A stretch of DNA of 64,000 nt from Pseudomonas entomophila. GTDB lineage: Bacteria; Pseudomonadota; Gammaproteobacteria; Pseudomonadales; Pseudomonadaceae. The notes beneath the pieces are model-generated. The model did not search any database. It was not told the origin of the DNA and was given only the letters and a program-made list of their open reading frames with translations. This document shows positions 36,664 to 55,705 of the stretch, piece after piece. Every line of letters begins with the position of its first letter. Positions within the stretch are counted from its first letter, which is position 1. Position numbers and translations under genes: made by a program. The DNA lies in assembly GCF_018417595.1 (NCBI RefSeq), contig NZ_CP070982.1, positions 2,691,501 to 2,755,500 on the forward strand. The letters are read 5' to 3'.

Positions 36664-36672
36664 TAAGAGCTC

Positions 36673-39600
36673 CTATGGAAGTGCACCACGCTTTGGCAAG
36701 CTTAACTTTCCGGTCCCAGGGTATCCTGATTTAGGCATGCGTGCGGACCAGCACCCGTTTCGCTTTCTCCAGTATCGATGCTGAATGCCCCTATGGTCGG
36801 CAGCAAGCATGGGGTCGGCGTGAGAGTAATCATAACCTAGGTCATTCTCAAACCGTGGTCTATGTGCCAACTCGTACCCTGGAGGCGCCTTGATATTAGA
36901 TTGTTTTCCGGCGCGAACACGACGGTCTTGGTTTTCCAACCACCCCCGCATAGAGCTAGGAGTATTGGGGTCTTCCATAACCTGTCTCCAGCGCGCGTCA
37001 GGGTTGACATATGGCTCTCCACAGCAACACTCTTTTGCTAGGCCGAGTGGATCAATCCAATATATAGGGTTCGGAGCATATTCATACTGATTTAGCCCCC
37101 CAGCATAACTGATCGGATCCTTGTTTATGAACCGCGCACCTTGGGTATCGTAATAGCGATAGCGGTTGTAGTGCAGTCCGGTCTCATGGTCGTGGTATTG
37201 GCCCTGGAAGCGCAGCGGGTTGCCCAGGCCGTGCTGCTTGGCCCATGCCGAGCGCTCCTCGCGGACTTCACCCCAGGCCTTGTACTGCCCCGCCCAGGCG
37301 ACATTGCCCTGTTCATCGGTCAGTTCCATCGGAGTACCGAGGTGGTCGCAGTGGTACCAGGCGATCGCCTCGAACGCCTGTGGTTTCACCTCGGTGTGCC
37401 ACAGCGGATCCTGATCGAAGTCGTACTCGCGCTGGCTCCAGTCCGGTTGCTTGTGCAGGCGAATCGGGCTCTTGCGCAGCGCCTGGGCGACCGGCACGAA
37501 GCTGCCCGGCTCGTACAGGTAGTGCACGGTGCGGCCGGTGTCGCCTTCATCGCGTGGCGGTGAGCTTTCCCAGGCCAAGGTGTCGCCATCCCAGCCGAAC
37601 AGGGTGAAGCCACAGCCAAGTTCGCGTTGGCGCTTGGCCCGTTGCAGTTGGTTCCAGCCGGTGCCCGCTTCCGGGCGATCCCAGAAATGCGCCACCGAAT
37701 GCTTGTGCAGGCGCCGGCCCAGGGCGTCGTAGCTGTAGTCGACCTTGAGCTTATCGTCGTTGTAACTGGCCAGCCGGTCGAACAAGTCCCAGGTGAATTG
37801 GGCATGTGCGCCGTTGTGTAGGCGGTGAATCAGGTTGCCGCGTTCGTCGTAGCGGTAATGGGTACCCGCGTACTCGCGCAGCAGGTTGTCCATCAGCTTG
37901 TTGCGCCGTGGATCGGCTTCCAGCGGGCGGTTCAGCTCCTGGGTTTTCTGGTCCAACAGGTTACCGGCCGGGTCGAAGGCGAAGGTTTCCACGCCCAGGC
38001 GGCTGGTGGCCTTGAGCAGGCGACCGACGGGGTCGTACTGGTACTCCAACGGCCCGCGACGGCTGTCGTGGATGTTGGTCAGCTGGCCGGCGGCGTCGTA
38101 GCGGTATTGGCGCTTGAGCAGCGTGGACTGGCCGTCATGGCTGCCCAGCAGCTGTTCCTGCAAACGCCCGGCCGGGTCCCAGGCCTGGGTTTGCATCAGC
38201 TTATTGCCCTGGTGGCGCACGATTTCGCGGTGCAGGTCATCGCGCTCGTAAGCCAGCATCTCGTGCTGGTCGAGGGTCATGCCGAGCAGGTGGCCGCTGC
38301 CGTAGGTCAGCCAACTGACCTTGTGGCCGTCCGGACGGATCGTCGCGGTGCGCTGGTTGAGCGCGTCGTACTCGTGCTGCCACACCGCAACCATCGGCGT
38401 GCCGGTGGCCAGGTAGTGCTGGTGCTCGCGGGTCAGGTTGCCGGCTTCATCGTGGAACCATTGCAGTTTGCTGGCGGCGTTGACCGCCTGGATCAGTTGG
38501 CCGTTGCCGTCGTAAGCGAAGCTCTCGCTTTGGCTCTGGTTACCCAGGCGGGCCGTGCGCTCACTCAATCGGCCCATGGGGTCGAAGGTCAGCTCGATAC
38601 GGCGTTGGCCGACCTGGGTGCTCGCCAACCGACCGCTGTACGGGTCGTACTGGTAGCGGGTGACCAGGCCATCGAAGCCGGTCTCTTGCAGCAGCCGACC
38701 GACCGGGTCATAGAGGAACGTGGCCTTGCTGGTGTTCTCGTTTTCCAGCCCGATCAAGCGGCCGAGCTTGTCCCAGCGATAACGTAGGGTGTGCTCATTG
38801 GCGTCGACGCGTTCGCTCAGCAGGCCGACCGCGTTGTAGGTCCAGGTGGTGCAGCGATCAAGCGCGTCGACATGGGCCAGCAGACGCCCTTCGGCATCGT
38901 AGTTGAAGCGTTCCTCGGTCTTGTCCGGGTGGGTAACCTTGGCCAGTTGCCCGGCCTGGTACTCGTAGGCGGTCGTGCTGCCGGCCGCATCGGTGAAAGC
39001 GGTCAGCTGGCCGAAGGCGTTGTACGTCCATTGGCTGGTCTTGCCCGAGCAGTCGGTGTACTCAAGCAGTTGCCCGGCCTCGTTGTAGGCGAGCGTCTTC
39101 TCGTTGCCCAACGCATCCTTGATTGCCTTGACCAGCCCGGCCGGGGTGTAGGCGAACTCGGTCTTATGGCCCAGCGGGTCGACGCTCTCGACCAGGTTGC
39201 CGCGCTCGTCGTAGTCGCGTAGCCACAAGCCACCTTCGGCATCACGCAGTTTGATCGGCTGGTCATGATCGTCGTAGGCGTAGTGCACCGTACTGTGGTC
39301 GGCACGGATGTGCTGCAGCAGGTTGCTGCGCTCATCGTAGGTGTAGCGGTCCTGGCTGCCGTCGGGGTGGACGTGGCGGATGACGTTCTTGCGCTGATCG
39401 CGGAACAGCCACTCCTCGCGGCCGTCCGGGTGGACCAGGCGGTAGGTGTAGCCCAGGGCGTCGTAGTAGTGCCAGGTCTCCTGGCCGTGGGCGTCGGTGA
39501 CATAGGTCAGGCGGATGTTCGGGTCCCAGGCCAGGCGGGTCTCGAAGCTGCCGTCGTCGGCCCATTCGTGGATGGCCTTGGCCTGCGGGCCGCTGCCGTC

Positions 39601-41364
39601 CCATTCGAGGTTGATGCCGCGCCCGGTGCGGTCGGTGTAACGGGTGATCAGGTGCTGGCGGTACTGGTAGTGCCAGGCGGCGCCGTGTTCGTCCTGGGCG
39701 GCGATCAGGTCGCCGTGGGTGTCGTAGTGGTAGCCGCACAGCTGGCGCAGCGGCGTGCCATCGACCACCTGCCACAGGCCCTGGATATGCCCATGGTCAT
39801 CGAGCAAGGTGCCCAGTTGCAGGTGGACTTTTTCGGGGTCGTTGTCGGAATAGGTGTTGATGTCCGACAGCACCGGCCGGCCGTTGTACTGGTGCTCGTA
39901 GTGCAGCATTGCCCCGGCGCCGCTGCGCAGCTGGATATGCGTCAGGTAAAAGCGGTCACCCTGGCGGGCATAGGTTTCACGGCGGTCCAGGCCACGCAAC
40001 AACACCAGTTGCTGCTCGGCGGTGCGCACCAGGCTGATGTATTCGATCGGGTCGTAGTGTGGCTTGCCGACCTTGGGCAGCGGGTAGTCGTGGCTGCGGC
40101 CGTCGCTGTCGTGGAACACCACGCCCTTGTCCACAACATCGATACAAGTGGTGAATTCGGTAATCCAGCGGGCGCCGAGCGAACCATGATCGAGGGCCGC
40201 CAGCCGCGAGTTATAAGTGCGCGTCCAGTTGACCGGGAACGGCCCGGACAGACTGAAATCCTGGTGAGCAAGGGTTTCATCACCAAGCACATGGCCGATG
40301 CTGAACCCGGTGCAGGCACAGGGTCCGTTCTTCGCAGGCTTGGGCTGCTTGTTGGCGCGGACCTGGCTGCGCACCACTTCGGTCGGCCCTTCGGCGTGGA
40401 CATGCCGGGCCTGGTGGGTGACGCCGGGGCGGATGGCGACGGCCATGCCCGGGCGGCGGGGGTTGGCCAGCACGGTCTCGAGCAGGCGGGTCAGCAGCCA
40501 GGCGATGCTGTTTTCCATACCGGCGCTGCCCAGGGCCTGCAGGCGCTGGGGCACGACCTTGGCCAGGTCTTCGAGGGTGCGGATCAACGGCCCGAGCAGG
40601 CTGTCCAGCTCGCCGCTGAAGTGACGGGCGACGCTGTTGTAACCGTCCTTGAGGCTGCCTTCGGTGGCATTGGCCAGGGCCGAGAGGGCCAGGCGCCAGG
40701 CATCGGTTTCGAGGGCCGAGTCGTACAGCGCCACCTGGGCCATTTGTGCGCGGGCCAGGCGGTGGCTGCTGGCAGCATCCAGCTTGCCACGGGCGGCGGC
40801 GGTAATGGTCTTGGCCAAGGAAGTAAACAGCAGGCGTGCGGTATCGGCAGCAGCGCTGAGCATGGCCGGCAACTGGGCCAGGGCCTCGCGCACGTAGTGC
40901 TCCAGGGCACCGCGGATATTGGCATGCAGGTGGCCGTCGATGATTTCCAGGATCACCGCGCCGATGTGCGCGCCGGGGCGACGGCGCAGGGTCTGGCGGG
41001 TCAGTTGCAGCACCGGGCGCAGCACCGTGCGGGCACGGGACAGGCCGGGTGGATAGGGGACGATGCCGATCAGGTTGATGCCCAGGCTGACCCACAGCAG
41101 TGGGTCGGGAGAAGGGTTTTCGACCAGTTCGAGGATATCGATCAGGGCGTCCACGCAGGCCAGGGCGTTGGACATGGCGGGTACGGTTTCGGCGGCCTGG
41201 CGCAGCAGTTGCAGGTCGACCAGGCCGTAGCTGATTTCCCGCAGCCAGTGGTCAACGGATGCGGCGGCGGCGCCGAGGTCTTCGCTGAGGAGGGTGTCGA
41301 GGGGGGCAATGGCGATCTGGATTTCGCGCGTGGTGAGCGCGGCATCGGCGGGCGCGGCAGACAT
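36673..41364 (-). CDS. Rhs-family polymorphic toxin with nuclease-like tip
   Basis: The protein has 1563 residues. Residues 1-370 are helical and lack an obvious PAAR domain. A DUF6531-type start follows (TGFSIGHVLGDETLAHQDFSLSGPFPVNWTRTYNS), then some twenty YD repeats (for example GNLVESVDPLGHKTEFAYTPAG, YDERGNLIHRL) that build the Rhs shell. The core ends with YYDTQGARFINKDPISYAGG and NPIYWIDPLGL, the autoproteolysis site. The ~120-residue tip has CCCGEP, PPGYELAHRPRFENDLGYDYSHADP and HRGIQHRYW. The AHR/H-rich pattern suggests a HNH-like or Ntox8-like nuclease; this is an inference. The tip is lower in GC than the core. Delivery by type VI secretion is likely from the family. The SUKH gene 9 bp downstream is the expected immunity gene. 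Confidence 0.9.
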   Translation of the reverse strand: MSAAPADAALTTREIQIAIAPLDTLLSEDLGAAAASVDHWLREISYGLVDLQLLRQAAETVPAMSNALACVDALIDILELVENPSPDPLLWVSLGINLIGIVPYPPGLSRARTVLRPVLQLTRQTLRRRPGAHIGAVILEIIDGHLHANIRGALEHYVREALAQLPAMLSAAADTARLLFTSLAKTITAAARGKLDAASSHRLARAQMAQVALYDSALETDAWRLALSALANATEGSLKDGYNSVARHFSGELDSLLGPLIRTLEDLAKVVPQRLQALGSAGMENSIAWLLTRLLETVLANPRRPGMAVAIRPGVTHQARHVHAEGPTEVVRSQVRANKQPKPAKNGPCACTGFSIGHVLGDETLAHQDFSLSGPFPVNWTRTYNSRLAALDHGSLGARWITEFTTCIDVVDKGVVFHDSDGRSHDYPLPKVGKPHYDPIEYISLVRTAEQQLVLLRGLDRRETYARQGDRFYLTHIQLRSGAGAMLHYEHQYNGRPVLSDINTYSDNDPEKVHLQLGTLLDDHGHIQGLWQVVDGTPLRQLCGYHYDTHGDLIAAQDEHGAAWHYQYRQHLITRYTDRTGRGINLEWDGSGPQAKAIHEWADDGSFETRLAWDPNIRLTYVTDAHGQETWHYYDALGYTYRLVHPDGREEWLFRDQRKNVIRHVHPDGSQDRYTYDERSNLLQHIRADHSTVHYAYDDHDQPIKLRDAEGGLWLRDYDERGNLVESVDPLGHKTEFAYTPAGLVKAIKDALGNEKTLAYNEAGQLLEYTDCSGKTSQWTYNAFGQLTAFTDAAGSTTAYEYQAGQLAKVTHPDKTEERFNYDAEGRLLAHVDALDRCTTWTYNAVGLLSERVDANEHTLRYRWDKLGRLIGLENENTSKATFLYDPVGRLLQETGFDGLVTRYQYDPYSGRLASTQVGQRRIELTFDPMGRLSERTARLGNQSQSESFAYDGNGQLIQAVNAASKLQWFHDEAGNLTREHQHYLATGTPMVAVWQHEYDALNQRTATIRPDGHKVSWLTYGSGHLLGMTLDQHEMLAYERDDLHREIVRHQGNKLMQTQAWDPAGRLQEQLLGSHDGQSTLLKRQYRYDAAGQLTNIHDSRRGPLEYQYDPVGRLLKATSRLGVETFAFDPAGNLLDQKTQELNRPLEADPRRNKLMDNLLREYAGTHYRYDERGNLIHRLHNGAHAQFTWDLFDRLASYNDDKLKVDYSYDALGRRLHKHSVAHFWDRPEAGTGWNQLQRAKRQRELGCGFTLFGWDGDTLAWESSPPRDEGDTGRTVHYLYEPGSFVPVAQALRKSPIRLHKQPDWSQREYDFDQDPLWHTEVKPQAFEAIAWYHCDHLGTPMELTDEQGNVAWAGQYKAWGEVREERSAWAKQHGLGNPLRFQGQYHDHETGLHYNRYRYYDTQGARFINKDPISYAGGLNQYEYAPNPIYWIDPLGLAKECCCGEPYVNPDARWRQVMEDPNTPSSMRGWLENQDRRVRAGKQSNIKAPPGYELAHRPRFENDLGYDYSHADPMLAADHRGIQHRYWRKRNGCWSARMPKSGYPGTGKLSLPKRGALP

Positions 41365-41472: not shown

Positions 41473-41559
41473 CTGTAGGAGCGGCTTCAGCCGCGATGCA
41501 GGCGACGCGGTGCCTGGCACCCGCTTCGCGGGTGATCGCGGCTGAAGCCGCTCCTACAG
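41473..41559. repeat. REP pair (inverted)
   Basis: CTGTAGGAGCGGCTTCAGCCGCGAT is mirrored by ATCGCGGCTGAAG plus CCGCTCCTACAG. It lies 47 bp past the MATE gene stop and forms the left border of the 7-deazapurine module; 41365-41606 holds no gene. Confidence 0.85.
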
Positions 41560-41606: not shown

Positions 41607-43028
41607 TTAACTGCCTTTCGCCTCCGGCGTCAGCACCACCGCCCTCGGCACCTGCGCCTCGCGCGTCTGCCGGTTGACGATCAGCTCCAGCCCCAGGTAC
41701 ATCGCGAAGGTTGCTGCTGCCAAACCAATGGCCAGGCCGGCCCAGATGTAGCGCGGCCCCAGCTCCAGGTGGATGCCGAGCCCGTAGGCGGTGGGCAGGG
41801 CGATGGCCCAGTAGAAGATCGCCACCAGCGCCAGTGAGGTCTTCAACGCCTTCAGCCCCCGCAGCGCCCCCAGCAGGATGTTCTGCGCACCGTCGAACAA
41901 CAGGAACCACACCGCCACGGCCAGCAGGCTGGCCACGGTGCTCTTGAGCAACAGGCTGTCGGCGGTGCCGGCGTGCACGAACAGGCTGGCGATCTCGGTG
42001 GGGAACACCAGGAACAGCGGGGCGAAGATCAACGAGGCGACCGCGCCGCAGGCCAGGCCGATGCGCGCCACGCGCTTGGTCTCGGCCACGCGGCCGGCCC
42101 CCACCAGTTGGCCGACCCGGTAGGAGGTGGCGCTGGACAGGCTGATGGGTACCACGAAGGCGATCAGCACCGCCTGCATCGCCACATGGTGGGCGGCCTG
42201 CACCACCACGCCGAAGTGCCCCATCATCAGCGCCGCGCAGGTGAACAGGCTCAGCTCGATGGCGAACGACAGGCCCACCGGTATGCCGAAGCGCAAGGCC
42301 TGGCGCAGGATGCCCCAGTCGATGTCGAGGATGCCCTCGAAGATGCGGTACGGCTGATAGCGGGGCGTCAGGGCGATGTAGCCGGCCAGCGAAACCGCCA
42401 TCAGCAGCGACACACTGGCGGTGACCGCGCCGATACCGCGCAGGCCCAGGAAGGGGATGCCGAACCACTGGTTGATGATCACCAGGTTGAGGGCCAGGTT
42501 CAGCACCGCGCCGGCCATGCTGATGACCATCACCGGCTTGGTGTCGCCCAGGGCGCTGACGAAGTTGCGCAGGGCCATGAACACCAGGTAGCCCGGCAGC
42601 GCGAAGGCCACCGCGTGGGTGAAGGCGATGAACGCGTCGATGCTTTGCGGCGGTTGGCCGAGGCTGCGCAGCAACGGCGCGGCCAGCCACAGCACCAGCA
42701 TGCCCAGGGCCGCCAGCAGCAGGGCGATGAGCAGGCCGCTCTGGCAGGAGCGCCGCACGCGAGTAATGTCCTGCGAGCCGTGGGCGATGGCGATCAGCGT
42801 GCCGATGCCGGAGATGACCCCGGAAAACGAAAAGGTCAGGAACGAATAGATCGACGCGCCGACACCGCCGCCGGCCAGGGCCTCGGCGCCCAGGCGGCCC
42901 ATCATGTAGGTGTCGGTGAAGACCATGACCACCTTGGACAGCTGGGCGGCCATCAAGGGTCCGGCCATGGCCAGCAGGATCATCAGCTCGCCCGTGGGGC
43001 GGCGGGTCGGGGATTTGTGTTCAAGCAT
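41607..43028 (-). CDS. MATE-family efflux transporter
   Basis: The protein has 473 residues and about twelve hydrophobic segments in two homologous halves. Family features are LAMAGPLMAAQLSKVVMVFTDTYMMGRLGAEALAGGGVGASIYSFLTF at the start and VPISLSSATSYRVGQLVGAGR in the second half. Such NorM-like pumps export toxic organic molecules using Na+ or H+ gradients from the inner membrane. The gene is transcribed away from the seven-gene 7-deazapurine cluster across a ~545-bp AT-rich regulatory region, and both lie inside one pair of REP borders. Export of, and self-protection from, the nucleoside product is therefore the most attractive role. It is inferred from position, and a general NorM pump unrelated to the cluster remains possible. 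Confidence 0.85.
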   Translation of the reverse strand: MLEHKSPTRRPTGELMILLAMAGPLMAAQLSKVVMVFTDTYMMGRLGAEALAGGGVGASIYSFLTFSFSGVISGIGTLIAIAHGSQDITRVRRSCQSGLLIALLLAALGMLVLWLAAPLLRSLGQPPQSIDAFIAFTHAVAFALPGYLVFMALRNFVSALGDTKPVMVISMAGAVLNLALNLVIINQWFGIPFLGLRGIGAVTASVSLLMAVSLAGYIALTPRYQPYRIFEGILDIDWGILRQALRFGIPVGLSFAIELSLFTCAALMMGHFGVVVQAAHHVAMQAVLIAFVVPISLSSATSYRVGQLVGAGRVAETKRVARIGLACGAVASLIFAPLFLVFPTEIASLFVHAGTADSLLLKSTVASLLAVAVWFLLFDGAQNILLGALRGLKALKTSLALVAIFYWAIALPTAYGLGIHLELGPRYIWAGLAIGLAAATFAMYLGLELIVNRQTREAQVPRAVVLTPEAKGS

Positions 43029-43130
43029 GCAACGGCCTCCGATGCCGGGTGAAACAGTCCATTTGATGACTCAAGCGAAGCTCGGGTTCAGATTCAAGCC
43101 CCTTTATCCTGTACGGGAATTCAGGGTCAC

Positions 43131-43154
43131 GATCTCATGAAGAATCATGATATC
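43131..43154. promoter_or_regulatory. operator-like inverted repeat between MATE gene and queE
   Basis: GATCTCATGA (43131-43140) and TCATGATATC (43145-43154) are inverted arms with one mismatch around AGAA, 103 bp upstream of the MATE start. The symmetry and spacing are those of a dimeric regulator site. No regulator gene is found beside it. Confidence 0.4.
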
Positions 43155-43354
43155 ACGCGATGTTTTTATTCACTTTGGTTATATGTCAAGGTCGTGAATA
43201 AACGAAATCGATATTTTGCACGGTCCGGTTATCTGGTCTAGTTTGTTTTACCGCACGTATATATCGATCTGCCCCAAGCATAACATCCTGTGCGTGGCGA
43301 GATGATACAAGTCAATTAAACAGGTGCTGTCGCTCAGGATCGGGTGATGGCCAA

Positions 43355-43377
43355 TTGAACGCAACTACTGCGTTCAA
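43355..43377. promoter_or_regulatory. perfect inverted repeat upstream of queE
   Basis: TTGAACGCA (43355-43363) and TGCGTTCAA (43369-43377) are perfect 9-bp arms with a 5-base centre, about 200 bp before the queE ATG. It could be an operator or a leader hairpin. The whole of 43029-43574 is AT-rich compared with its flanks and holds no convincing gene. Confidence 0.4.
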
Positions 43378-43574
43378 CTTTATATGGTCGCTGCAGGGAA
43401 GCGAACTGGCCAGGGATCAGGCTGTCGAGGAAATACATATTGAGCGTGGATAGTGTCGCTCAGGTTTTCTATCCGCTTGCATCTGTTTATCTGGAACTTC
43501 CCTGCCTGCTGACGTTTTATCAGCGTGCGCCTCTTCATTGTCAGAAGGCGTATTGCAGTCAACAGGGAGTGGGT

Positions 43575-44264
43575 ATGTTTGGCGAGAACCCCATAAGAAA
43601 GAAAGCGCCTGACAGCGAGACCCTTTGGGTGGAAGAGGTGTTCAGGACCTTGCAAGGCGAGGGCCCCTATTCGGGGGTGCCGTCGACCTTCGTCCGGCTG
43701 TCGGGATGCAACCTGCAATGCTACTGGTGCGACACCCAGTTCGAGGCGTTTCGCTGGTCGATGACCCCGCAGGCCATCGTCGAGATGATCCGCGGCCTTG
43801 AAGCACCGGTGCCCGAGCTGGTGGTGCTGACGGGCGGCGAACCCTTTCGCCAGAGCATCGCGCCACTGATCCAGGTGTTCCTCGACGAGGGCTTCAAGGT
43901 CCAGATCGAGACCAACGGCACGATCTACCAGGCCATCCCCACGGGGCAGGACGTCACCGTGGTGTGCAGCCCGAAGACGCCGGTGCTGGACCTGCGCATG
44001 ATCGAGATCATCACCCACTACAAATATGTACTGGCCCATGGCGAAGTCGACGAAAGCGATGGCCTGCCGGGCACTTCCACGCAACGGGCCGGTAAAAAGG
44101 CCCGGCTGTTCCGCCCGCCCCAGGGCAAGCCGGTATATGTCATGCCGCGCGATGACTACGACGAGCAACGCAACAAGGACAACCTCAAGGCTTGTATCGA
44201 TGTGGCCACCCGCCAGGGTTACACATTGAATATGCAATTGCACAAGCTGCTGAATCTTCCATAA
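43575..44264 (+). CDS. queE: 7-carboxy-7-deazaguanine synthase (radical SAM)
   Basis: The protein has 229 residues. It contracts the ring of 6-carboxytetrahydropterin to 7-carboxy-7-deazaguanine (CDG). The [4Fe-4S] motif CxxxCxxC is CNLQCYWC (Cys45, 49, 52), EVFRTLQGEGPYSGVPSTFVRLSG is the QueE N-terminus, and VVLTGGEPFRQ is the SAM-binding GGE motif. The start ATG 43575 follows GGGAG by six bases; the in-frame upstream extension has no ribosome-binding site. It is the first of seven co-oriented genes with gaps of at most about 12 bp or overlaps. Housekeeping queE genes in pseudomonads sit elsewhere with queC; queC is absent here. This points to a specialised pathway that uses CDG itself rather than preQ0. 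Confidence 0.93.
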   Translation: MFGENPIRKKAPDSETLWVEEVFRTLQGEGPYSGVPSTFVRLSGCNLQCYWCDTQFEAFRWSMTPQAIVEMIRGLEAPVPELVVLTGGEPFRQSIAPLIQVFLDEGFKVQIETNGTIYQAIPTGQDVTVVCSPKTPVLDLRMIEIITHYKYVLAHGEVDESDGLPGTSTQRAGKKARLFRPPQGKPVYVMPRDDYDEQRNKDNLKACIDVATRQGYTLNMQLHKLLNLP

Positions 44265-44274
44265 GGATATGACC

Positions 44275-44883
44275 ATGCAAAACGATAAAGAACGTTCCCA
44301 CGCCAAAGCCCGACAAGGCGTTATCGATATTCTCGAATACCTGGGTGAAGACACCAATCGCCAGGGGCTTCATGAGACGCCGGAGCGCTTCTTGAAATCG
44401 ATGGTCGCGCAGACCGTGGGTTATTCCCAGGACCCGTATCGGGTACTGGAGAAGTTCTTCGAGGAAGTGGCTGGCTACAAGAACCTGATCATGTTGCAGA
44501 ACATCCACTTCGAGTCGATGTGCGAACACCACCTGGCACCAATCGTGGGTAACGCCACCGTCGGCTACATCCCCAATGGCCGGGTGGTGGGCCTGTCCAA
44601 GCTGGCCCGGGTGGTGGACATCTTCGCCAAGCGCCTGCAGATCCAGGAGCGGCTGACCTCGGAGATCGGCCTGGCCCTGGACGAAGTGCTGCGCCCCAAA
44701 GGGGTGGGGGTGATCATCCGCGCCAAGCACAACTGCCTGTGCACCCGCGGCGCCTACAAGCCCAACGCCAACATGACCACCACTTACTTCTCGGGCGTGC
44801 TGGACAGCGACTCGATCAAGCGCGGCGAGTTCTACACCGCCGCCGCGTTGCCATGGGGCAATGGCGTTCACCACTCTCAGTAA
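44275..44883 (+). CDS. folE: GTP cyclohydrolase I
   Basis: The protein converts GTP to 7,8-dihydroneopterin triphosphate, the entry step to 7-deazapurines. It is 202 residues, normal for type I enzymes. Zinc ligands are in SMCEHHLAPIVGNA (Cys and His) and HNCLCTRG (second Cys). GYIPNGRVVGLSKLARVVDIFAKRLQIQERLT is the strongly conserved active-site region. TAAGGA lies seven bases before ATG 44275; the ATG at 44269 is too close to it. The gene lies 10 bp after queE and 12 bp before queD. Its presence supplies a dedicated precursor flow for this cluster. Confidence 0.93.
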   Translation: MQNDKERSHAKARQGVIDILEYLGEDTNRQGLHETPERFLKSMVAQTVGYSQDPYRVLEKFFEEVAGYKNLIMLQNIHFESMCEHHLAPIVGNATVGYIPNGRVVGLSKLARVVDIFAKRLQIQERLTSEIGLALDEVLRPKGVGVIIRAKHNCLCTRGAYKPNANMTTTYFSGVLDSDSIKRGEFYTAAALPWGNGVHHSQ

Positions 44884-44895
44884 GGGAAGACTGTC

Positions 44896-45423
44896 ATGTT
44901 CAAGATCGACCGCAAGATCGAAATCGACGCCGGCCACCGGATCCGCTCCCATGGCTCCAAGTGCCGCAACCTGCACGGCCACCGTTACTCGGTGCACATG
45001 ACCTGCAGCGCCGACGAGCTCGCCACCCATGGCTCGGAGACCGGCATGGTGCTGGACTTCAGCTTTGCCAAGGACGCCATGGTGCAGTGCATCGATGAGC
45101 TGTGCGACCACGCGCTGATCGTCGACGCCGAGGACGAGTACCTGCTGCAGGTGCTGGACATCCACGGCCCGGCCCGCGATGTACGCACCTCCGGCGTGGC
45201 GTTGCCGCTGACCAACGGCGAAGGGATGAAGATCTACCTGGTGCCGTTCTCGCCCACCGCCGAGGCGCTGGCCAAGCACTGGTACGAGTTGCTGAGCGAC
45301 AAAGTCGCCACCCTCGGCCACGGCGCCGCGCAGGTGCGCGTGGACACCATCCGTGTGTACGAAACCCCCAACTGCTGGGCCGAATACCCGGCCAGCAATG
45401 TGGGAGGCGCGCAGCATGTTTAG
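44896..45423 (+). CDS. queD: 6-carboxytetrahydropterin synthase (QueD family)
   Basis: The protein has 175 residues. Zinc histidines are in IEIDAGHRI and NLHGHRY. The catalytic cysteine is in KCRNLHGH, the CxxxHGH motif that marks QueD rather than mammalian-type pyruvoyl-tetrahydropterin synthase. DFSFAK and VYETPN (active-site Glu) follow. It turns dihydroneopterin triphosphate into 6-carboxytetrahydropterin, the substrate of QueE. It is about 50 residues longer than the ~120-residue E. coli enzyme because of an insertion (YLLQVLDIHGPARDVRTSG region). Its last eight bases overlap the next gene, indicating coupled translation. Confidence 0.92.
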   Translation: MFKIDRKIEIDAGHRIRSHGSKCRNLHGHRYSVHMTCSADELATHGSETGMVLDFSFAKDAMVQCIDELCDHALIVDAEDEYLLQVLDIHGPARDVRTSGVALPLTNGEGMKIYLVPFSPTAEALAKHWYELLSDKVATLGHGAAQVRVDTIRVYETPNCWAEYPASNVGGAQHV

Positions 45424-46561
45424 AAAGGGCTATGTGTTCGACGACGTGCTGCTGGTGCCCAAGAAAACCCACCTGGCCAGCCGCAAAGAGGCCAATATCG
45501 GCGTCGAGCTCAAGGGCATCGGCCGCCTGAGCGTGCCAATCATCTCGGCCAACACACAGTGGTGCACCGAGGACCGCATGGCCATGGAAATGGCGCGGAT
45601 GGGCGGGCTGGGCATCGTCCACCGCATGTGCAGCATCGAAGACCAGGTGGCGTTTGTGCATGCGGTGAAGAGCGCGCCGGTGACTCAGCGCGAGCCCGAC
45701 TTCGCGCCGACCCTGGACAGCCAGGGCCGGCTCAAGGTTGGCGGCTCGATCGGCATCGTCGACGACTACCTGCAGCGCGCCGCAGGCCTTGCCGCGTGCG
45801 ATGTGGATTTCCTGACCCTGGACATCGCCCACGGCCATTCCGCCCATGCCATCGCCGCGATCGCAAACGTCAAGGAGCGCCTGGGCGATATCCCAATCGT
45901 CGCCGGCAACGTCGCCACACCCGAAGGCGTGCTCGACCTGGCGAAGGCCGGGGCCAGCGTGATCAAGGTCGGCATCGGCCCGGGCAGCGTGTGCACCACG
46001 CGCTCGGTCACTGGCGCCGGGGTGCCGCAGCTCACCGCGATCCTCGAATGCGCCGCGGCGGCGAAGGAGGCAGGCGTCAGCATCATTGCCGACGGTGGCA
46101 TCCGCAGTTCCGGGGATATCGTCAAGGCCTTGGCCGCCGGCGCCAACGCGGTGATGCTCGGGCGCATGCTCGCCGGCACCGACGAAAGCGCCGCGCAGCT
46201 GCTGGAGGTGTCCGGCAAGCGCTTCAAGCTGACCCGCGGCTTCGTCACCTTCGGCACCAACCTCGAGCTCAAGCGCCTGCAGGGCCAGAAGATCACCGAG
46301 GAACAACTGCTGCGCTACGTGCCCGAAGGCATCGAGGCCTGCTTCGAGTACGCCGGCCCCTTGCGCGCCTACCTGTACCAGCTGATCGGCGGTGTGCAGT
46401 CGGGCTTCAGCTACTGCGGCGCCAGCGACTACCAGCAGCTGCTGGAACGCCACGAGTTCATCGAGGTGTCGGTGCAGACCAGCCAGGAAAGCCGCCCCCA
46501 TGCCCTGGACGCGGCCAAGCATCCCATCGACTACAAGGCCGAGGTACTCAGCCATGATTAA
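45416..46561 (+). CDS. GMP reductase-like enzyme (TubD-like reductive deaminase of 7-deazaguanine nucleotides)
   Basis: The protein has 381 residues and a TIM barrel of the IMPDH/GMP reductase family. The active-site loop is GIGPGSVCTTRSVTGAGVPQ with the catalytic cysteine at residue 193. There is no CBS pair, which together with the length argues for GMP reductase rather than IMP dehydrogenase. VAGNVAT, ADGGIRSSGDI and GANAVMLGRMLAG are typical nucleotide-binding stretches. In tubercidin biosynthesis TubD, an NADPH-dependent reductase, performs an irreversible reductive deamination of the 7-deazaguanine nucleotide; a protein of this family between queD and a phosphoribosyltransferase fits that role. 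The start overlaps the queD stop. A duplicate guaC for salvage is the alternative, made less likely by the operon. Confidence 0.85.
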   Translation: MFRKGYVFDDVLLVPKKTHLASRKEANIGVELKGIGRLSVPIISANTQWCTEDRMAMEMARMGGLGIVHRMCSIEDQVAFVHAVKSAPVTQREPDFAPTLDSQGRLKVGGSIGIVDDYLQRAAGLAACDVDFLTLDIAHGHSAHAIAAIANVKERLGDIPIVAGNVATPEGVLDLAKAGASVIKVGIGPGSVCTTRSVTGAGVPQLTAILECAAAAKEAGVSIIADGGIRSSGDIVKALAAGANAVMLGRMLAGTDESAAQLLEVSGKRFKLTRGFVTFGTNLELKRLQGQKITEEQLLRYVPEGIEACFEYAGPLRAYLYQLIGGVQSGFSYCGASDYQQLLERHEFIEVSVQTSQESRPHALDAAKHPIDYKAEVLSHD

Positions 46562-47027
46562 CCTGACCTGGAACGATGTGGAGCAACTGTCGCTGGCCAT
46601 CGCCGAGGCAGTGCGCGAGTCGGGCTACACCTTCGACACCATCGTTGGTGTGGCACGCTCCGGCTGGGTGCCGGCGGTGATCGTCGCCCACGAGCTGGGC
46701 GTGCGTGAAGTGGCCACGCTGTCGATTCGGCGCAACCTGTCCGATGGCGTCGACTCGCACAAGGCCGCCCCACGCCTGGTGGATATCAGCCCCCTGGCGC
46801 AGGCCGGCAAGAAATGGCTGGTGATCGAGGACATCGTCGGCAGCGGCGAGACCGTGCGCTTTATCCGCGAGCAGTACGGCGTGGACGGGCGCGACATCTA
46901 TGTCGCCAGCCTGGTGTTCAACGCCGCCAACGGCGACCGCGGCCAGGTCAACGAGATGGTCGAGTTTCATGCCCGGGAAGTCACCGAGTGGGTGCGCTTC
47001 CCCTGGGAAAGAAGGATCGATGCCTGA
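46554..47027 (+). CDS. phosphoribosyltransferase (TubE-like, for 7-carboxy-7-deazaguanine)
   Basis: The protein has 157 residues and is a type I phosphoribosyltransferase. The PRPP loop is VIEDIVGSGET (standing for the usual DDxxxTGxT), the N-terminal PPi loop region is IVGVARSGWVPAVIVAHELG, and it resembles xanthine/guanine-type enzymes. In the tubercidin pathway TubE joins PRPP to 7-carboxy-7-deazaguanine. The same reaction is proposed here because queE upstream makes CDG and no nucleobase-salvage genes are present. The gene overlaps the reductase gene by 8 bp and the decarboxylase gene by one base (TGATG), so all three should be made together. Confidence 0.85.
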   Translation: MINLTWNDVEQLSLAIAEAVRESGYTFDTIVGVARSGWVPAVIVAHELGVREVATLSIRRNLSDGVDSHKAAPRLVDISPLAQAGKKWLVIEDIVGSGETVRFIREQYGVDGRDIYVASLVFNAANGDRGQVNEMVEFHAREVTEWVRFPWERRIDA

Positions 47028-48226
47028 TGAGAAACTTGCTCAGCGAGGCCCGCGTCGACGAAGTCGCGGGCCTGTTCGAGACCGACCTCGAAATCTCGCG
47101 CTACCTGCACCAGCACTACGACCTCAAGGCCTATCCGGTGGTGAAGTTCAGCAACGTCGCCTGCGCTTCCGGGGTGCCCTATGTGGACAACGCCTTCAAG
47201 CGCGAGGCGATGCTGCGCGGGCTGGGTTTGAACGAAGAGAACGTGCAGCCGGAATTCGCCCGGCGTGCGCGCGGGGTGCACGACGACCAGCGTGCCCCCG
47301 TGCGGGCGCCGTGGGCGTTCCAGCGGATGGACTGGTCGCTGTTGGACCTGCCGTTTCTCAAGTACCAGCCCGGTGATGGCGGCCGCTACCTGACCTCGTT
47401 CGTGTTCTGCGTGCAGGACAAGGCCGGGCGCTACAACCTGGGCTTCTACCGTGGCGAGATCAAGGACGGGCGCACCATCGCAGTGTTCATCGACCCCCGC
47501 ACCGATGCCCACGCGATCATCCACGAGCGGCTGCGCGAAGAGGGCGAGGTCAAGGTCAGCCTGTTCAACGGCGGGCCGATCGCGGCCTATATCGGCGGGG
47601 CCAGCAAGATCCCGGCGGACGTGGACAGCTACGTGTTCTCCTCGGCCATCGCCGACGCCCCCATCGACCTGTGCCGCCAGGGCGACTACCCGGCGGTGCC
47701 GGCCGAGAGCGAACTGGTGCTGCACGCCAGCCTGAACGGCAAGATGATCGACGAAGGGCCGTTCTGCGAGTTCAAGGGCTACTACAGCGAGAAGACCGTG
47801 GGCTTCGAGCTGACCGTCGAGGCGATCCACGCACGGGACAATCCGCTGTTCTTCGGGATCTTCTGCGGCAAGGAGTCGGGCCTGGACCTGATGCGCCTGC
47901 AGAACGAGACGTTCATGTACGGCTTCCTCGAAAGCAAGGGCATCCCCGTGCGTCGAGTTGTGTACCCGACGGCGTACTTCGGCGAGTTCGGGGTGATCGT
48001 CGAGTGCGATACGGTGAACGAAGCGACCCTGCGGCTGGTCATGGAATACGACCTGCGCAGCAAGCTGTTCTTCCTGGTCAGGAATGCCGACACGCTGTTC
48101 GCCGACCTGTCGACCTTCGCCTTCGAGACGGTGACCGACGACTACCGCAAGCGCGGGGTACGCATGGGCGGGCGGGTGGGGTTGCTGTGCGACAATGCCA
48201 ACGACTTCAACTGGAAGACCTTCTGA
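47027..48226 (+). CDS. UbiD-family prenyl-FMN decarboxylase (TubF-like)
   Basis: The protein has 399 residues. UbiD-family features are the LASxEISRYLHQHYDL-like N-terminus, FNGGPIAAYIGGASKIPADVDSYVFSSAIADAPID (standing for the GADPA region), SELVLHASLNGKMIDEGPFCEFKGYY (about residues 230-250, the catalytic Glu motif), and a C-terminal hexamerisation half ending FAFETVTDDYRKRG. The expected reaction is removal of the 7-carboxylate from the deazapurine nucleotide, which converts the CDG skeleton to plain 7-deazapurine. It needs prenyl-FMN from UbiX, which is not in the window and must come from the ubiquinone pathway. It is shorter than UbiD itself (~490 residues). Its start overlaps the preceding stop and its own stop overlaps the Nudix start. 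Confidence 0.82.
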   Translation: MRNLLSEARVDEVAGLFETDLEISRYLHQHYDLKAYPVVKFSNVACASGVPYVDNAFKREAMLRGLGLNEENVQPEFARRARGVHDDQRAPVRAPWAFQRMDWSLLDLPFLKYQPGDGGRYLTSFVFCVQDKAGRYNLGFYRGEIKDGRTIAVFIDPRTDAHAIIHERLREEGEVKVSLFNGGPIAAYIGGASKIPADVDSYVFSSAIADAPIDLCRQGDYPAVPAESELVLHASLNGKMIDEGPFCEFKGYYSEKTVGFELTVEAIHARDNPLFFGIFCGKESGLDLMRLQNETFMYGFLESKGIPVRRVVYPTAYFGEFGVIVECDTVNEATLRLVMEYDLRSKLFFLVRNADTLFADLSTFAFETVTDDYRKRGVRMGGRVGLLCDNANDFNWKTF

Positions 48227-48735
48227 TGGAACGATCGATGAGCCCCAGGCTCAGCACCCTGGTGTACTGCACCTACGAGGGGCAGGTACTGCTGCTGGAC
48301 CGGCAGACGGCGCCGTACCGCGGTTTCCTGCTGCCGCCGGGCGGCAAGTGCGAGTTTGGTGAAATCCCCATCGACTGCGCGCGCCGCGAGTTCGCCGAGG
48401 AGACGGGCTACGCGATCACCGAGCCGCTGCGCCCGCGAGGGTTGGTGTACGACTACTCGCGGTCGCCGGACTGGAACTGGCTGATCTTCGTCTACAGCTT
48501 CGAAGCCAAGGCCCGGCCCACGCTGGTCGAGGAAAAGCACCCGTTGGTGTGGGCGGACCTGGACAACCTCGATGCCTACCGGATTCCGGAATCGGACCGG
48601 TTCCTGATGGGGCGGCTGTTCGACGAGGGCTGCAGCTACCTGGAGCTGGCCATGGAGTATCGCCAGGCCGAGGCGTTCGTGCGCTGCAGCGCGCATTTTG
48701 AAGGGCAGGGCGAGCTGTTCAAGCAAGGGACGTGA
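48226..48735 (+). CDS. Nudix hydrolase (TubG-like)
   Basis: The protein has 169 residues with a perfect Nudix box: GKCEFGEIPIDCARREFAEE followed by TGY, fitting Gx5Ex7REUxEExGU. The strand before it (FLLPPGG) and the C-terminal acidic region are normal for the family. In tubercidin biosynthesis the Nudix enzyme TubG carries out the last step, hydrolysis of the nucleotide to the free nucleoside. As the last gene of this operon it fits the same job. Its ATG shares a base with the decarboxylase stop (TGATG). General nucleotide house-cleaning is the alternative. Confidence 0.88.
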   Translation: MERSMSPRLSTLVYCTYEGQVLLLDRQTAPYRGFLLPPGGKCEFGEIPIDCARREFAEETGYAITEPLRPRGLVYDYSRSPDWNWLIFVYSFEAKARPTLVEEKHPLVWADLDNLDAYRIPESDRFLMGRLFDEGCSYLELAMEYRQAEAFVRCSAHFEGQGELFKQGT

Positions 48736-48755: not shown

Positions 48756-48841
48756 CTGTAGGAGCGGCTTCAGCCGCGATCACCCGCAAAGCGGGTGCCA
48801 TAACCGCGTTGTCTGCATCGCGGCTAAAGCCGCTCCTACAG
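48756..48841. repeat. REP pair (inverted)
   Basis: CTGTAGGAGCGGCTTCAGCCGCGAT is mirrored by ATCGCGGCTAAAG plus CCGCTCCTACAG. It is the right border of the 7-deazapurine module, the same REP subfamily as the left border, and overlaps the last codons of the convergent lipoprotein gene. Confidence 0.85.
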
Positions 48842-49510
48842 TAGCTCCGGCATCACCGCTTTCAACAGCAGAGCATTAACCTGACGCTTGAGCGTGTCGT
48901 ACTCGGCCTTTTCCTCCGTATCACCCAGCCTAACCAGGTTGACGAGACCCACCCGCTGGTCAATCGCATCGCTGTTGGCGGCCCAGGCCAGAGGCTGCTT
49001 GTCCGGGCCATGCAAGCTCAGTATCAACTTGAATTCCTGTGGCCGGCTGCTGGGGACAAGCCCCAGGGTAACCAGTGTGGCCATGCTGGCCAGTGCCTCG
49101 CCGGCACTGAACGGCCAGTAGGTGTAGACACTCAGATCCAGTTGGTAATCACCAGGACGCACTGCTTCGCCATTCATGCTGACATGCGCGAACAACCCGG
49201 TTTCGTCGAGTATCTGGCGCACCTGTTGCGTGGTGTTCTGCTGAACGCCGGCAGGGGCGAGCGGGGAAAGGGCGGCCAACCTCTGCAAGCGTTGCGTGTC
49301 CGTCTCCAAGGCAGCGCCCTTGAGCGAGCTCGCCAGCAGGTGAGGTAACGGGGAGCCAAAATAGTGGCTCACCGAAACATGGACACTCGGCTTTTGCGCC
49401 TCGTTCACCGGTGACGGCAAGGTGACGGGTGCCACCTGATTCTGAGGGACGGCGGCGCAACCGCCGAGGGTGAGGCCAAGGCAGAGGTACAGGCGTGTGA
49501 AGACAGTCAT
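48836..49510 (-). CDS. putative outer-membrane lipoprotein, unknown function
   Basis: The protein has 224 residues. The signal peptide ends in LTLGGC, a good lipobox, so the mature protein is lipid-anchored. The body has VSHYFGSPLPHLLASSLKGA and QQVRQILDETGLFAHVSM, the latter resembling the 'NLFxxV' segment of small LpoB-like or DUF-type lipoproteins, and a short hydrophobic stretch near 150. I do not recognise a family. The start was taken at MTVFTRLYLCL, after AGGAAGC. The last codons lie inside a REP element. It follows the TonB receptor gene of the FecIRA set on the same strand after a hairpin, so it is probably a separate unit. Confidence 0.65.
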   Translation of the reverse strand: MTVFTRLYLCLGLTLGGCAAVPQNQVAPVTLPSPVNEAQKPSVHVSVSHYFGSPLPHLLASSLKGAALETDTQRLQRLAALSPLAPAGVQQNTTQQVRQILDETGLFAHVSMNGEAVRPGDYQLDLSVYTYWPFSAGEALASMATLVTLGLVPSSRPQEFKLILSLHGPDKQPLAWAANSDAIDQRVGLVNLVRLGDTEEKAEYDTLKRQVNALLLKAVMPELL

Positions 49511-49588
49511 GCAGAGCTTCCTGGGAAATCGGGGCATGATTGTAGAGACTGTGCGGTGATTCTAAAAGGCCATCATTCGCCGTTTGAC

Positions 49589-49629: not shown

Positions 49630-52041
49630 TCAGAATGCATAGACCAAGGTGGCCGTGGCACTGCGCGGAGTGCCATACCAACCCCGCGAACCGATCGCGG
49701 TGTAGTACTTCTCGTCGAACACGTTGTTGAGGTTCAAGGCGACGCTGGTTTGCGGCGTGAACGCGTACTGCGCCATCAGGTCGACCACGCTGTAGGCGCC
49801 CTGGTTGAACGTCTCGCCATCAGGCCCGGCGTTCTTGTAGTACTCCGTACCCTGCCAACGCACGCCACCGCCGACTTTCAACTGCGGCAGGGATTGCAGG
49901 CGATAACTGGTGAACAGCTTGAGGGTGTCGCGCGGCACATCCGTGAGCAGGCGCTTGCCATCGGAGTCCTTGGCCACGGCATAGGTGTAGCCGGCGGAGA
50001 CTTGCCAGCCGGGCAGGACCTCGCCCGCCATTTCCATCTCGAAACCGCGGGTCTTGGTACCCGACTCGGCGCGGTAGGCCTGGTTGCCATCGGGGGCGAG
50101 GTTGCTGCCGTCCGCCACGGCCAGGTTGTCCTGGTGCACTTCGAAGACACTGAACGCGGTGGTCAGGCGCTTGTCCCAGAACTCGCTCTTGAGCCCCAGC
50201 TCGTAGTTCACGCCTTCTTCCGGCTCGATGTAGCCGCCACTGACATCCTGCTTGCTTTGCGGCTTGAAGATGGTGGTGTAGCTGGCATACGCCGACCAGT
50301 TCTCGTTGAGGTCGTAGACCAGCCCCATGTAGGGGGTGACGACTCCAGTCTCGCTGCGCGAGGTGCGGCTGGTGTCGCCGGTGGCCAGGGTGGTGTTGGC
50401 TTCATCGCGTTTCCAGTCGATCACCCGCGCACCGGTAATCAGCGACAGGTCGTCGGCCAGGCTCCAGCGCACCGACGCGACCAGGCCGTCCTGGGTTTCG
50501 TCCAACGCGTCTTTCGTCGACTTGGCGTGGATAGCGTCCGGGATCGCCAGCGAACCGTCCCAGGTGTGGATGTTGTCGATGCTCTGCAGCGACCAGAGCG
50601 GGTAGCCGTTGTTGCGGTAGTAGGCCCGGTAATGGCTGGCACCGAGGTATGCCTGGTGTTCACGGGTGAACAGCTCGAACGGGCCGTTGGCCGACAGATC
50701 GAGCGACGTCTGCCGAGGCTCGCCCGCCCAGCGCCCGGTCCAGGTGCTGATGCCGCTGCCATCGGGGTTGACGGTGCCGCTGGCGGCGGTGGCGAAGGCG
50801 TCGTCGTAGCTGCGGCGGCTGTGCTCGGCGTTGAGCTTCAGTTGCCAGCCGTTGTCCAGCTGGTGCTCCAGGGTGGTGAACAGCGTTTTCGCGCGGCGCT
50901 TGTGGTAGCTCCAGTCCGAGGCCGAGTTGAACGAGCGCGAAGGGTTGAAGTGGCTGCCATCGGTGTTGTACATCGGGAAGCCATGGTTGCCAGCGCCGTC
51001 GCTGTCCAGCTCCTGGTATTCCACGCCCACGGTCAGCATCGTGCTGTCGGTGATGTCCCATTCCATCACTCCGTAGGCCACTTCCTTTTTCAGCGACTGG
51101 CGGTCGATATGGCTCTGGCTATCGGTGGTCGACGCCACGAAGCGCCCACGTACATGGCCGCTCTCCGACAATTTGCCGGACACGTCCAGCTCGGTGCGGT
51201 AGTTATCCCACGAGCCCGCCTTGAGGGTCAGCTTGCGTTGGGTCTCGACGGTCGGCTTCTTGCGGATCAGGTTGATGGTGGCGCCGGGGTCGCCGGTCCC
51301 CGACATCAGGCCCGTGGCCCCGCGCACCACCTCCACCCGGTCGTACGAGACCATGTCGGCCAGGTCGTCGCGAAAACCATAGGTGTCGGGACGGTTGACG
51401 CCGTCGACCTGGATGCTGCCGACCTCGAAGCCACGCACATAGATATGGTTACCGTCGCTCCCGGCCGGCCCCATGCTGTTGACCACCACGCCCGGGGTTT
51501 GCTCGAGCACCTGGGCAACGTCCGTCAGGTTCTGGTCTTCGATCTGCTGGCGGGTGACCACGCTCACCGACTGCGGCGTCTCGCGAGCGGAGAGACGCAG
51601 CCCGGTCGCGGTGTTGGCCGAGCCCGTGGTGTAGCTGCCCGTGCCTTCGGTGGTGCTGCCCAGGCCCATGGCGTCGATGCTGGTCGCGCCCAGCTCGACG
51701 GCACCGTCGGTGGGCGCCTTGCTCAGCACATAGCGCTTTTCGCCCATCGCCTGCACCCGCAACCCGGAGCCCTGCAGCAACGTGGCAAAGCCTTGCTCCA
51801 GCTCGAAGCTGCCGCGCAGCCCCGACGACTGCAGCCCGGTGGTTTCGTCGTGGCTGAAGCTGATGGTCACGCTGCTGGCGGCGGCGAACTGGCTGATCGC
51901 CGAAGCCAGGCTGCCGGCCGGAATATCGTAGCGCTGCGGGGCGGCCCAGGCGGTCGAGGTCGCCAGCGCGGCGCCGCAAAGGCTCAGCGCAAGGGTCGCC
52001 TGGCGAATGCTGCAGGCTAGCGAGGTACGGCGTGCGGACAT
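49630..52041 (-). CDS. TonB-dependent siderophore receptor with STN signalling domain (FecA/FpvA-type)
   Basis: The protein has 803 residues. A signal peptide ends near STAWA. Residues 35-105 are the STN domain (IPAGSLASAISQFAAASSVTISF ... FATLLQGSGLRV), which contacts a FecR-type regulator. The TonB box and plug follow (SARETPQSVSVVTRQQIED, HIYVRGFEVGSIQVDGVNRPDTYG, VEVVRGATGLMSGTGDPGATINLIRKKPT). The beta-barrel ends with Phe in RSATATLVYAF. The layout is that of FpvA/PupB-like receptors for hydroxamate, catechol or pyoverdine-type ferric siderophores; the ligand cannot be told from sequence. With the fecR- and fecI-like genes directly upstream on the same strand it forms a complete cell-surface signalling set. 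Confidence 0.92.
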   Translation of the reverse strand: MSARRTSLACSIRQATLALSLCGAALATSTAWAAPQRYDIPAGSLASAISQFAAASSVTISFSHDETTGLQSSGLRGSFELEQGFATLLQGSGLRVQAMGEKRYVLSKAPTDGAVELGATSIDAMGLGSTTEGTGSYTTGSANTATGLRLSARETPQSVSVVTRQQIEDQNLTDVAQVLEQTPGVVVNSMGPAGSDGNHIYVRGFEVGSIQVDGVNRPDTYGFRDDLADMVSYDRVEVVRGATGLMSGTGDPGATINLIRKKPTVETQRKLTLKAGSWDNYRTELDVSGKLSESGHVRGRFVASTTDSQSHIDRQSLKKEVAYGVMEWDITDSTMLTVGVEYQELDSDGAGNHGFPMYNTDGSHFNPSRSFNSASDWSYHKRRAKTLFTTLEHQLDNGWQLKLNAEHSRRSYDDAFATAASGTVNPDGSGISTWTGRWAGEPRQTSLDLSANGPFELFTREHQAYLGASHYRAYYRNNGYPLWSLQSIDNIHTWDGSLAIPDAIHAKSTKDALDETQDGLVASVRWSLADDLSLITGARVIDWKRDEANTTLATGDTSRTSRSETGVVTPYMGLVYDLNENWSAYASYTTIFKPQSKQDVSGGYIEPEEGVNYELGLKSEFWDKRLTTAFSVFEVHQDNLAVADGSNLAPDGNQAYRAESGTKTRGFEMEMAGEVLPGWQVSAGYTYAVAKDSDGKRLLTDVPRDTLKLFTSYRLQSLPQLKVGGGVRWQGTEYYKNAGPDGETFNQGAYSVVDLMAQYAFTPQTSVALNLNNVFDEKYYTAIGSRGWYGTPRSATATLVYAF

Positions 52042-53994: not shown

Positions 53995-54049
53995 TATCCA
54001 CTGCAAGGGTGGCGTGGTGGCTGAAATCCAATGCAAAAGAGGATTTACC

Positions 54050-55650: not shown

Positions 55651-55705
55651 AATCGTCTGCAAGCGATTGGCGGCGGTCCGATCAGCGCAACTGGAGAGCT
55701 ATATC

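Follow-up and report, generated by a model that had tools for sequence, protein, structure and literature searches.

What do seven tightly packed genes for 7-deazapurine-type enzymes make in a pseudomonad? The genes lie in a 64,000-nucleotide stretch of Pseudomonas entomophila DNA (RefSeq assembly GCF_018417595.1, contig NZ_CP070982.1, positions 2,691,501 to 2,755,500; hereafter the window, numbered from its first letter). Tubercidin is an antibiotic that resembles adenosine and is known chiefly from Streptomyces, and a first-pass annotation made from the sequence alone had proposed that these genes encode a tubercidin-type enzyme set. We put at roughly 0.7 the probability that they form a mobile Gram-negative tubercidin-type biosynthetic cassette, most likely with 7-deazaadenosine (tubercidin) as its product. 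The seven enzyme genes occupy 43575-48735, and an exporter gene lies upstream of, and divergent from, the operon. The features of the locus are as follows.

41607-43028, minus strand: MATE-family exporter (MatE / NorM family), a cluster-specific paralog of 473 amino acids.
43029-43574: divergent intergenic region, A+T-rich (47.8% G+C), presumably containing both promoters.
43575-44264, plus strand: queE-like radical SAM gene (Pfam; below NCBIfam cut-offs; CX3CX2C motif).
44269-44883, plus strand: folE, GTP cyclohydrolase I, candidate for the TubC role (Pfam, NCBIfam; a second copy beside the host folE).
44896-45423, plus strand: queD-like gene, 6-carboxytetrahydropterin synthase, candidate for the TubA role (Pfam; below NCBIfam cut-offs).
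45416-46561, plus strand: GMP-reductase-like enzyme of 381 amino acids, candidate for the TubD role (Cys193 loop; lacks the CBS domains and the IMPDH Arg-Tyr flap dyad).
46554-47027, plus strand: phosphoribosyltransferase (PRT) of 157 amino acids, candidate for the TubE role (Gly/Asn replace the Asp/Lys base contacts of salvage enzymes).
47027-48226, plus strand: UbiD-family decarboxylase, candidate for the TubF role (Arg142, Glu243 and Glu248 align with conserved residues of solved UbiD enzymes).
48226-48735, plus strand: Nudix hydrolase, candidate for the TubG role (complete Nudix box).

The seven coupled genes that had been predicted here are all present and intact, as is the MATE gene. Spacing along the operon is tight, with gaps of 4 and 12 bp followed by overlaps of 8, 8, 1 and 1 bp, and third codon positions are 81-92% G+C across all seven genes. 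The eight proteins fall into the Pfam families QueE-like radical SAM, GTP_cyclohydroI, PTPS, IMPDH/GMPR, Pribosyltran, UbiD, NUDIX and MatE. Curated NCBIfam cut-offs were passed by FolE and MATE only; QueE, QueD, the reductase, PRT, UbiD and Nudix matched the expected NCBIfam families with scores under the cut-offs, suggesting that they are diverged family members. Their catalytic motifs are intact, including the radical SAM CX3CX2C (CNLQCYWC in QueE), the QueD C-X3-HGH (CRNLHGH), the reductase Cys193 and a full Nudix box, and we also located CEHH in FolE and a phosphoribosyl pyrophosphate (PRPP) loop, VIEDIVGSGET, in PRT. A promoter scan of 43029-43574 gave 0 matches to the sigma-70 consensus, with 1.0 expected by chance.

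The closest functional parallel is the tub cluster of Streptomyces tubercidicus NBRC 13090 (Liu et al. 2018, PMC6112128; GenBank MG706975 for TubA-TubG), in which tubA-I are listed as QueD, QueE, FolE, GMP reductase, PRT, UbiD, Nudix, a kinase and an MFS exporter. The seven enzymatic functions predicted for the operon appear common to both clusters, and neither contains queC or purA/purB; among the tub-type features found here are the module for 7-carboxy-7-deazaguanine (homologs of QueD, QueE and FolE), a UbiD-family decarboxylase in the place of queC, and a Nudix hydrolase. The absence of purA/purB had been noted in the first-pass annotation and was borne out. That annotation had also claimed the same gene order as in tub, which is true of D-E-F-G (reading the letters of Table 1 as gene order) and not of the first three genes, which run QueD/QueE/FolE (A/B/C) in tub and queE-folE-queD in the window. 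The two clusters differ further in host (Streptomyces versus Pseudomonas), in exporter (MFS versus MATE), and in the lengths of TubA (125 amino acids) and TubE (194) versus the window QueD (175) and PRT (157). No counterpart of the TubH kinase or the TubI MFS protein was found in the eight genes or in the next two downstream, at 48836-49537 and 49630-52041 (Pfam; the RHS side was judged by eye); we consider this pair accessory to a tub-type cluster and not defining. A cluster of the toyocamycin/sangivamycin type was rejected for the window, as Pfam found no queC among the eight genes.

An alternative is that the operon provides extra queuosine/preQ0 precursor or serves purine salvage. The queE, folE and queD genes are queuosine genes, PRT is Gpt-like and the reductase belongs to the IMPDH/GMPR family, and the queuosine pathway and E. 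coli Gpt, GuaB and GuaC do represent the ancestral families of these enzymes. However, the host genome encodes a separate QueE above the family cut-off, a second FolE and a second QueD-family gene. The window QueE is 30% identical to the host QueE versus 47-51% to QueE of Bradyrhizobium/Rhizobium clusters; QueD is 30% identical to the host copy versus 41-44% to those clusters (45% in the Bradyrhizobium locus comparison); and FolE is 40% identical to the host FolE versus 44% to cluster FolE (45% in the Bradyrhizobium locus comparison). The UbiD decarboxylase fits neither pathway, and very few pseudomonads carry the operon. With queC missing from the operon, the host duplicates in place and the salvage Asp and Lys of PRT replaced (see below), we rejected queuosine supply and guanine salvage as highly improbable, in agreement with the earlier statement that preQ0/queuosine supply is not the purpose of the operon.

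The base-binding site of PRT provides further support for a 7-deazapurine substrate. The window PRT is 29% identical to E. coli Gpt, and we aligned 18 sequences, 15 of which have queE, queD and folE as neighbors, as judged from annotation or tblastn. All 15 cluster PRTs have Gly at the position of Gpt Asp92 and Asn at that of Gpt Lys115, so that these base contacts are changed relative to the ancestral enzyme. The 15 are related rather than independent; four are near-identical Pseudomonas copies, and one, from the Rhizobium leguminosarum plasmid L048, is counted although the queE beside it looks broken (it is unannotated, and the match is split into two pieces in different frames). Of the other three sequences, Gpt itself and a Methylobacterium plasmid PRT have Asp and Lys, and a Sphingobium plasmid PRT has Asp and Asn, indicating that Asn alone does not discriminate; neither plasmid PRT has cluster marker genes within the stretch viewed. 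The plasmid search with PRT matched 24 records, from which H54, H56, H57, H66, H68-H70 and most or all of four unlisted records were left out of the alignment, as was the PRT of the Bradyrhizobium plasmid L007, identical to that of L006. Asp also occupies the Gly position in all five solved PRTs compared, out of 14 PDB matches. We take Gpt Asp92 and Lys115 to be the counterparts of human HGPRT Asp137 and Lys165. In the human enzyme, N7 of the base lies near Asp137 OD2 (3.6 Å) and Lys165 NZ, and O6 lies near Lys165 NZ (Table 2 in the available part of PMC2228302). A 7-deazapurine has no N7, and the loss of the Asp thus fits the proposed substrate. With its PRPP loop and Gly/Asn site, the window PRT is predicted to use 7-carboxy-7-deazaguanine (CDG) and PRPP, the role of TubE. 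The replacements Asp92 to Gly and Lys115 to Asn (Gpt numbering) could serve as an easy sequence criterion for recognizing 7-deazapurine phosphoribosyltransferases, and mutating these two residues would probe what determines the choice of base. Taken together, the enzyme set, the D-E-F-G order, the separate host queE/folE/queD and this signature argue for synthesis of a 7-deazapurine nucleotide and support the tubercidin-type enzyme set that had been proposed.

The reductase (IMPDH/GMPR Pfam family, 390 bits) had been described as GMP reductase-like, with a Cys193 loop and without a CBS pair. Cys193 is exactly placed, and alignment with E. coli GuaB and GuaC indicated that the Cys loop is kept, that the CBS insert of GuaB is absent, and that there is no Arg-Tyr at the IMPDH flap (DRYFQ in GuaB, position counted by hand), a dyad that we assume to function in IMPDH. 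The same pattern was seen in one Pseudomonas relative and two alphaproteobacterial proteins. The GMP reductase label follows from the absence of this dyad and of CBS domains and from the analogy to TubD. In the UbiD protein (PF01977, 120 bits), the Arg and two Glu (Arg142, Glu243, Glu248), presumably the catalytic triad, align with those of AnInD, a phenolic acid decarboxylase and ferulic acid decarboxylase.

Several points weigh against the tubercidin-type reading. The best NCBIfam model of the reductase (323 bits, under the cut-off) and its best PDB match are IMP dehydrogenases, and it is 39% identical to E. coli GuaB versus 36% to GuaC. The likeness to TubA-TubG appears to be one of family and order, as is that of the UbiD protein to TubF, and no TubF assay appears in the available part of PMC6112128. 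An AlphaFold model of the UbiD protein, built with four near-identical rows, had a mean predicted local distance difference test (pLDDT) score of 36.9 and was not used. The lack of TubH and TubI counterparts counts on the same side, and amination could fail or be skipped, since the cluster has no purA/purB, though an R. leguminosarum relative has both.

The pathway that we propose draws on the genes, motifs, co-inheritance, selection and host ubiX/purA observed here; the order of its reactions is taken from the Streptomyces work, and we infer every substrate and product in P. entomophila. PRT would join CDG to PRPP, and the UbiD enzyme, with prenylated flavin mononucleotide from the host UbiX, would decarboxylate the resulting nucleotide to 7-deaza-GMP. 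Reductive deamination by the GMP-reductase-like enzyme may then lead to 7-deaza-IMP, which host PurA and PurB would aminate to 7-deaza-AMP. Finally, the Nudix enzyme would remove the phosphate to give 7-deazaadenosine (tubercidin), for export by the MATE protein. The host genome has one UbiX and one PurA, both outside the cluster, as well as a second UbiD match stronger than the cluster UbiD. Consistent with these steps, TubE was reported to use CDG and PRPP in vitro, TubD to reduce GMP and TubG to hydrolyze AMP, and PurA and PurB were proposed to be borrowed from the host (PMC6112128, part available).

It is possible, although unlikely, that the pathway ends elsewhere, with Nudix acting on an earlier nucleotide and export of 7-deazainosine, 7-deazaguanosine or a carboxylated form. 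Any of these products would fit PRT and the first three enzymes, the substrate of a Nudix enzyme is not readable from sequence, and the operon lacks the purA/purB step, for which the R. leguminosarum relatives have adenylosuccinate synthetase and lyase genes of their own. However, a GMP-reductase-like gene would be pointless if 7-deazaguanosine were the product, purA is present in the host, and the Streptomyces tub cluster also lacks purA/purB yet yields tubercidin (PMC6112128, part available). We therefore keep 7-deazaadenosine as the preferred end point.

A dedicated exporter had been a guess in the first-pass annotation, and the distribution of the MATE gene strengthened it considerably. 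A MATE match at E <= 1e-100 was found in 114 of 199 Pseudomonas genomes; at 97% identity or more it was confined to the window genome and one other (G127), both of them cluster carriers. No other match exceeds 46% identity, and each of the two carriers has an additional copy, at 45%, elsewhere. Homology at the DNA level between the window and a carrier described below (L004) covers 41644-48727, with one end inside the MATE gene and the other inside the Nudix gene, placing the exporter in the mobile unit. The protein, named a NorM-family multidrug exporter by NCBIfam, is thus a second paralog and, with good support, the predicted dedicated exporter of the cluster.

The co-moving exporter also bears on whether the product is instead an intracellular nucleotide, for RNA or DNA modification, signaling or defense, rather than a secreted antibiotic. 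Actinomycete relatives (L042, L074-L076) pair PRT and queE/queD/folE with annotated thymidylate kinases, which may point to higher phosphates, and one hypothetical gene in the Bradyrhizobium cluster L006 looks kinase-like by eye. PADLOC gave low scores for QueE against viperin models (25.6 bits) and for Nudix against the candidate PDC-S07 (34.1 bits, E 4.5e-9). The viperin match, however, extends over a 74-residue part of the radical SAM core, and the PDC-S07 match runs along the Nudix domain, so both may reflect shared folds, and there is no kinase, DNA/tRNA transglycosylase or restriction gene among the seven. We consider an intracellular product improbable. Defense and DNA modification were rejected as explanations: no dpd model appeared in the PADLOC matches of the seven proteins, and the two scores above were taken as fold matches. 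A dpd DNA-modification island was likewise set aside, as no transglycosylase (DpdA type) was found among the eight genes by Pfam, in a search confined to the cluster genes.

Returning to the tubercidin-type cassette, we asked how widely it occurs. A search for the UbiD gene detected it in 2 of 298 Pseudomonas genomes; with a five-row UbiD profile the figures were 2 of 398 for the genus and 1 of 398 for the phylum. The window's own genome is among those counted, and the samples overlap. Scanning one genome for each GTDB species with the UbiD protein alone, an approach that detects close relatives only, gave three loci, in P. entomophila COR5 (L003), Pseudomonas sp. RIT-PI-AD 1 (L004) and P. mangiferae DMKU BBB3-04 (L005). 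COR5 and G127 are almost surely one genome, given identical match coordinates (64794-65990). Four carriers are known, the window genome included, and judging by their species names they are presumably plant- and insect-associated. All eight genes, with order and orientation kept, are present in COR5 (96-100% protein identity to the window) and in L004 and L005 (83-95%). Their reading frames contain no internal stops in the window, L004 or L005, at dS values of 0.29-0.72, and dN/dS, estimated by a simple Nei-Gojobori count, is 0.04-0.22 for every gene. All eight genes are under purifying selection, and frames kept open in three diverged genomes at such ratios are not a product of chance.

The flanks of the unit differ between carriers. 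In L004 and L005 it sits in a glycine-cleavage locus, between gcvH and a TyrR-like regulator gene (names read from translations), unlike in the window. A search of 31 Pseudomonas genomes for the TyrR-like regulator provided loci of which the best 12 were viewed. In nine of these gcvH adjoins the regulator, uninterrupted; in the other three, one of which is the window's own genome, gcvH was unmatched within the stretch viewed. The homologous blocks on either side are approximately 0.4-0.6 kb apart in four loci compared by DNA, versus 7.6 kb in L004. Overall, the eight genes move together as a unit, whose ends showed no transposase or integrase. An empty site was not found in the window's own lineage: the gene at 48836-49537 was matched in only 1 of 38 genomes, the window's own, and additionally in COR5, which also carries the unit. 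No close plasmid copies were found, the best DNA match lying in the MATE gene and accounting for 8% of the unit, and a Nudix query returned three partial matches. A phage origin was rejected: in the phage collection, UbiD partially matched annotated UbiD genes of 2 records and PRT matched distant phage PRTs in 12 records, and a scan of viral contigs gave 32 pattern matches and no relative.

More distant relatives occur on plasmids. The Bradyrhizobium plasmid clusters L006 and L007 (5812-16287 in each) have queD, folE, a reductase (52% identical to that of the window), PRT (37%), UbiD (35%) and queE (47%), followed by three hypothetical genes, including the kinase-like one, a nucleotidyltransferase-family gene and their own ubiX. 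Within the 19-kb stretches there is no match to the window Nudix or MATE, and none is annotated. R. leguminosarum plasmids L040 (ATCC 14479, 6518-14858) and L048 carry queD, PRT, an HAD hydrolase, queC, nitrile hydratase alpha, a reductase, queE, purB, adenylosuccinate synthetase and folE, a set that looks toyocamycin/sangivamycin-like. The toy and R. leguminosarum clusters have the CDG module, the reductase (49-50%) and the Gly/Asn signature of PRT in common with the window; they differ in having queC and nitrile hydratase alpha where the window has UbiD, an HAD hydrolase where it has Nudix, and their own purA and purB. Further sets in which the same kind of PRT adjoins queD-queE-folE were found on Streptomyces and Streptosporangium plasmids. 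In these (L042, L074, L075, L076), queD-queE-folE-PRT is accompanied by two annotated thymidylate kinases, a radical SAM gene, an aminotransferase gene and a SAICAR-synthase-like gene. The Bradyrhizobium clusters sit near mobilization genes, an S8 peptidase gene stands beside the R. leguminosarum sets, and a nodA-family gene lies near the L048 set.

On these comparisons, the window cluster appears to be a new Gram-negative, mobile member of the tubercidin-type clusters with a co-moving exporter. A broader view, which we offer as a tentative conjecture, is that mobile loci for making 7-deazapurine nucleosides form a separate and largely undescribed lineage in Proteobacteria. Its members would be tub-like in the Pseudomonas and Bradyrhizobium clusters and sangivamycin-like in R. 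leguminosarum, and would be marked by replacement of the N7-contact Asp of PRT with Gly. The Pseudomonas version might then be a self-contained cassette for production and export, moving between unrelated loci and equipping plant- and insect-associated strains with an adenosine analog, possibly one other than tubercidin. The alphaproteobacterial plasmid relatives suggest a wider spread of 7-deazapurine chemistry by mobile DNA.

Tubercidin-type nucleosides are cytotoxic adenosine analogs studied against mycobacteria, parasites, viruses and tumors (available parts of PMC6112128 and PMC12648386). The characterized clusters in the literature covered are from actinomycetes, and a compact eight-gene Pseudomonas version would provide a fast-growing producer and a new ecological setting. 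We saw no description of a Pseudomonas tubercidin-type cluster in the open-licence PMC literature, covered mostly as titles and abstract starts, with subscription papers outside its scope. A 2025 review names ToyB-D and TubA-E as mining probes, and the available main text contains no 'Pseudomon-', 'Proteobacter-' or 'Gram-negative' (PMC12648386). The supplement of PMC6112128 has a figure of further candidate clusters (Fig. S10), and such a strain may be listed there. Several people are acknowledged in that paper for providing strains with a potential cluster, including G.-Q. Chen, whose group worked with P. entomophila L48; part of the priority may lie with that supplement. The self-resistance role of TubH is given only tentatively in the available part of the same paper.

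Two further features lie just outside the cassette, both probably incidental.

41475-41557: repetitive extragenic palindromic (REP) doublet just beyond the MATE end.
48758-48839: REP doublet just beyond the Nudix end.

These doublets bracket the cassette at 50 bp from the MATE gene end and 23 bp from the Nudix gene end, and they belong to five near-identical doublets in the window (the others at 24159-24241, 54328-54410 and 55984-56066). We rejected them as transposition ends: there are five in 64 kb, and no REP match was found between the window and L004/L005. On the MATE side, 36235-41364 encodes an RHS-repeat protein (1563 amino acids, judged by eye) and, after it, a member of the SUKH/SMI1-KNR4 family, an arrangement typical of a polymorphic toxin and its immunity protein. 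A likely siderophore region (11333-29996, Pfam) contains a TonB receptor, a periplasmic binding protein, FecCD permeases, ABC transporters, an ornithine/lysine monooxygenase and a nonribosomal peptide synthetase. Rfam detected two C4 antisense RNAs and one a1/b1 target above the gathering score (53804-53856, 53907-53996 and 55561-55652), all outside the cassette; we take these families to be regulators of the phage P1/P7 type, found here in a bacterial chromosome.

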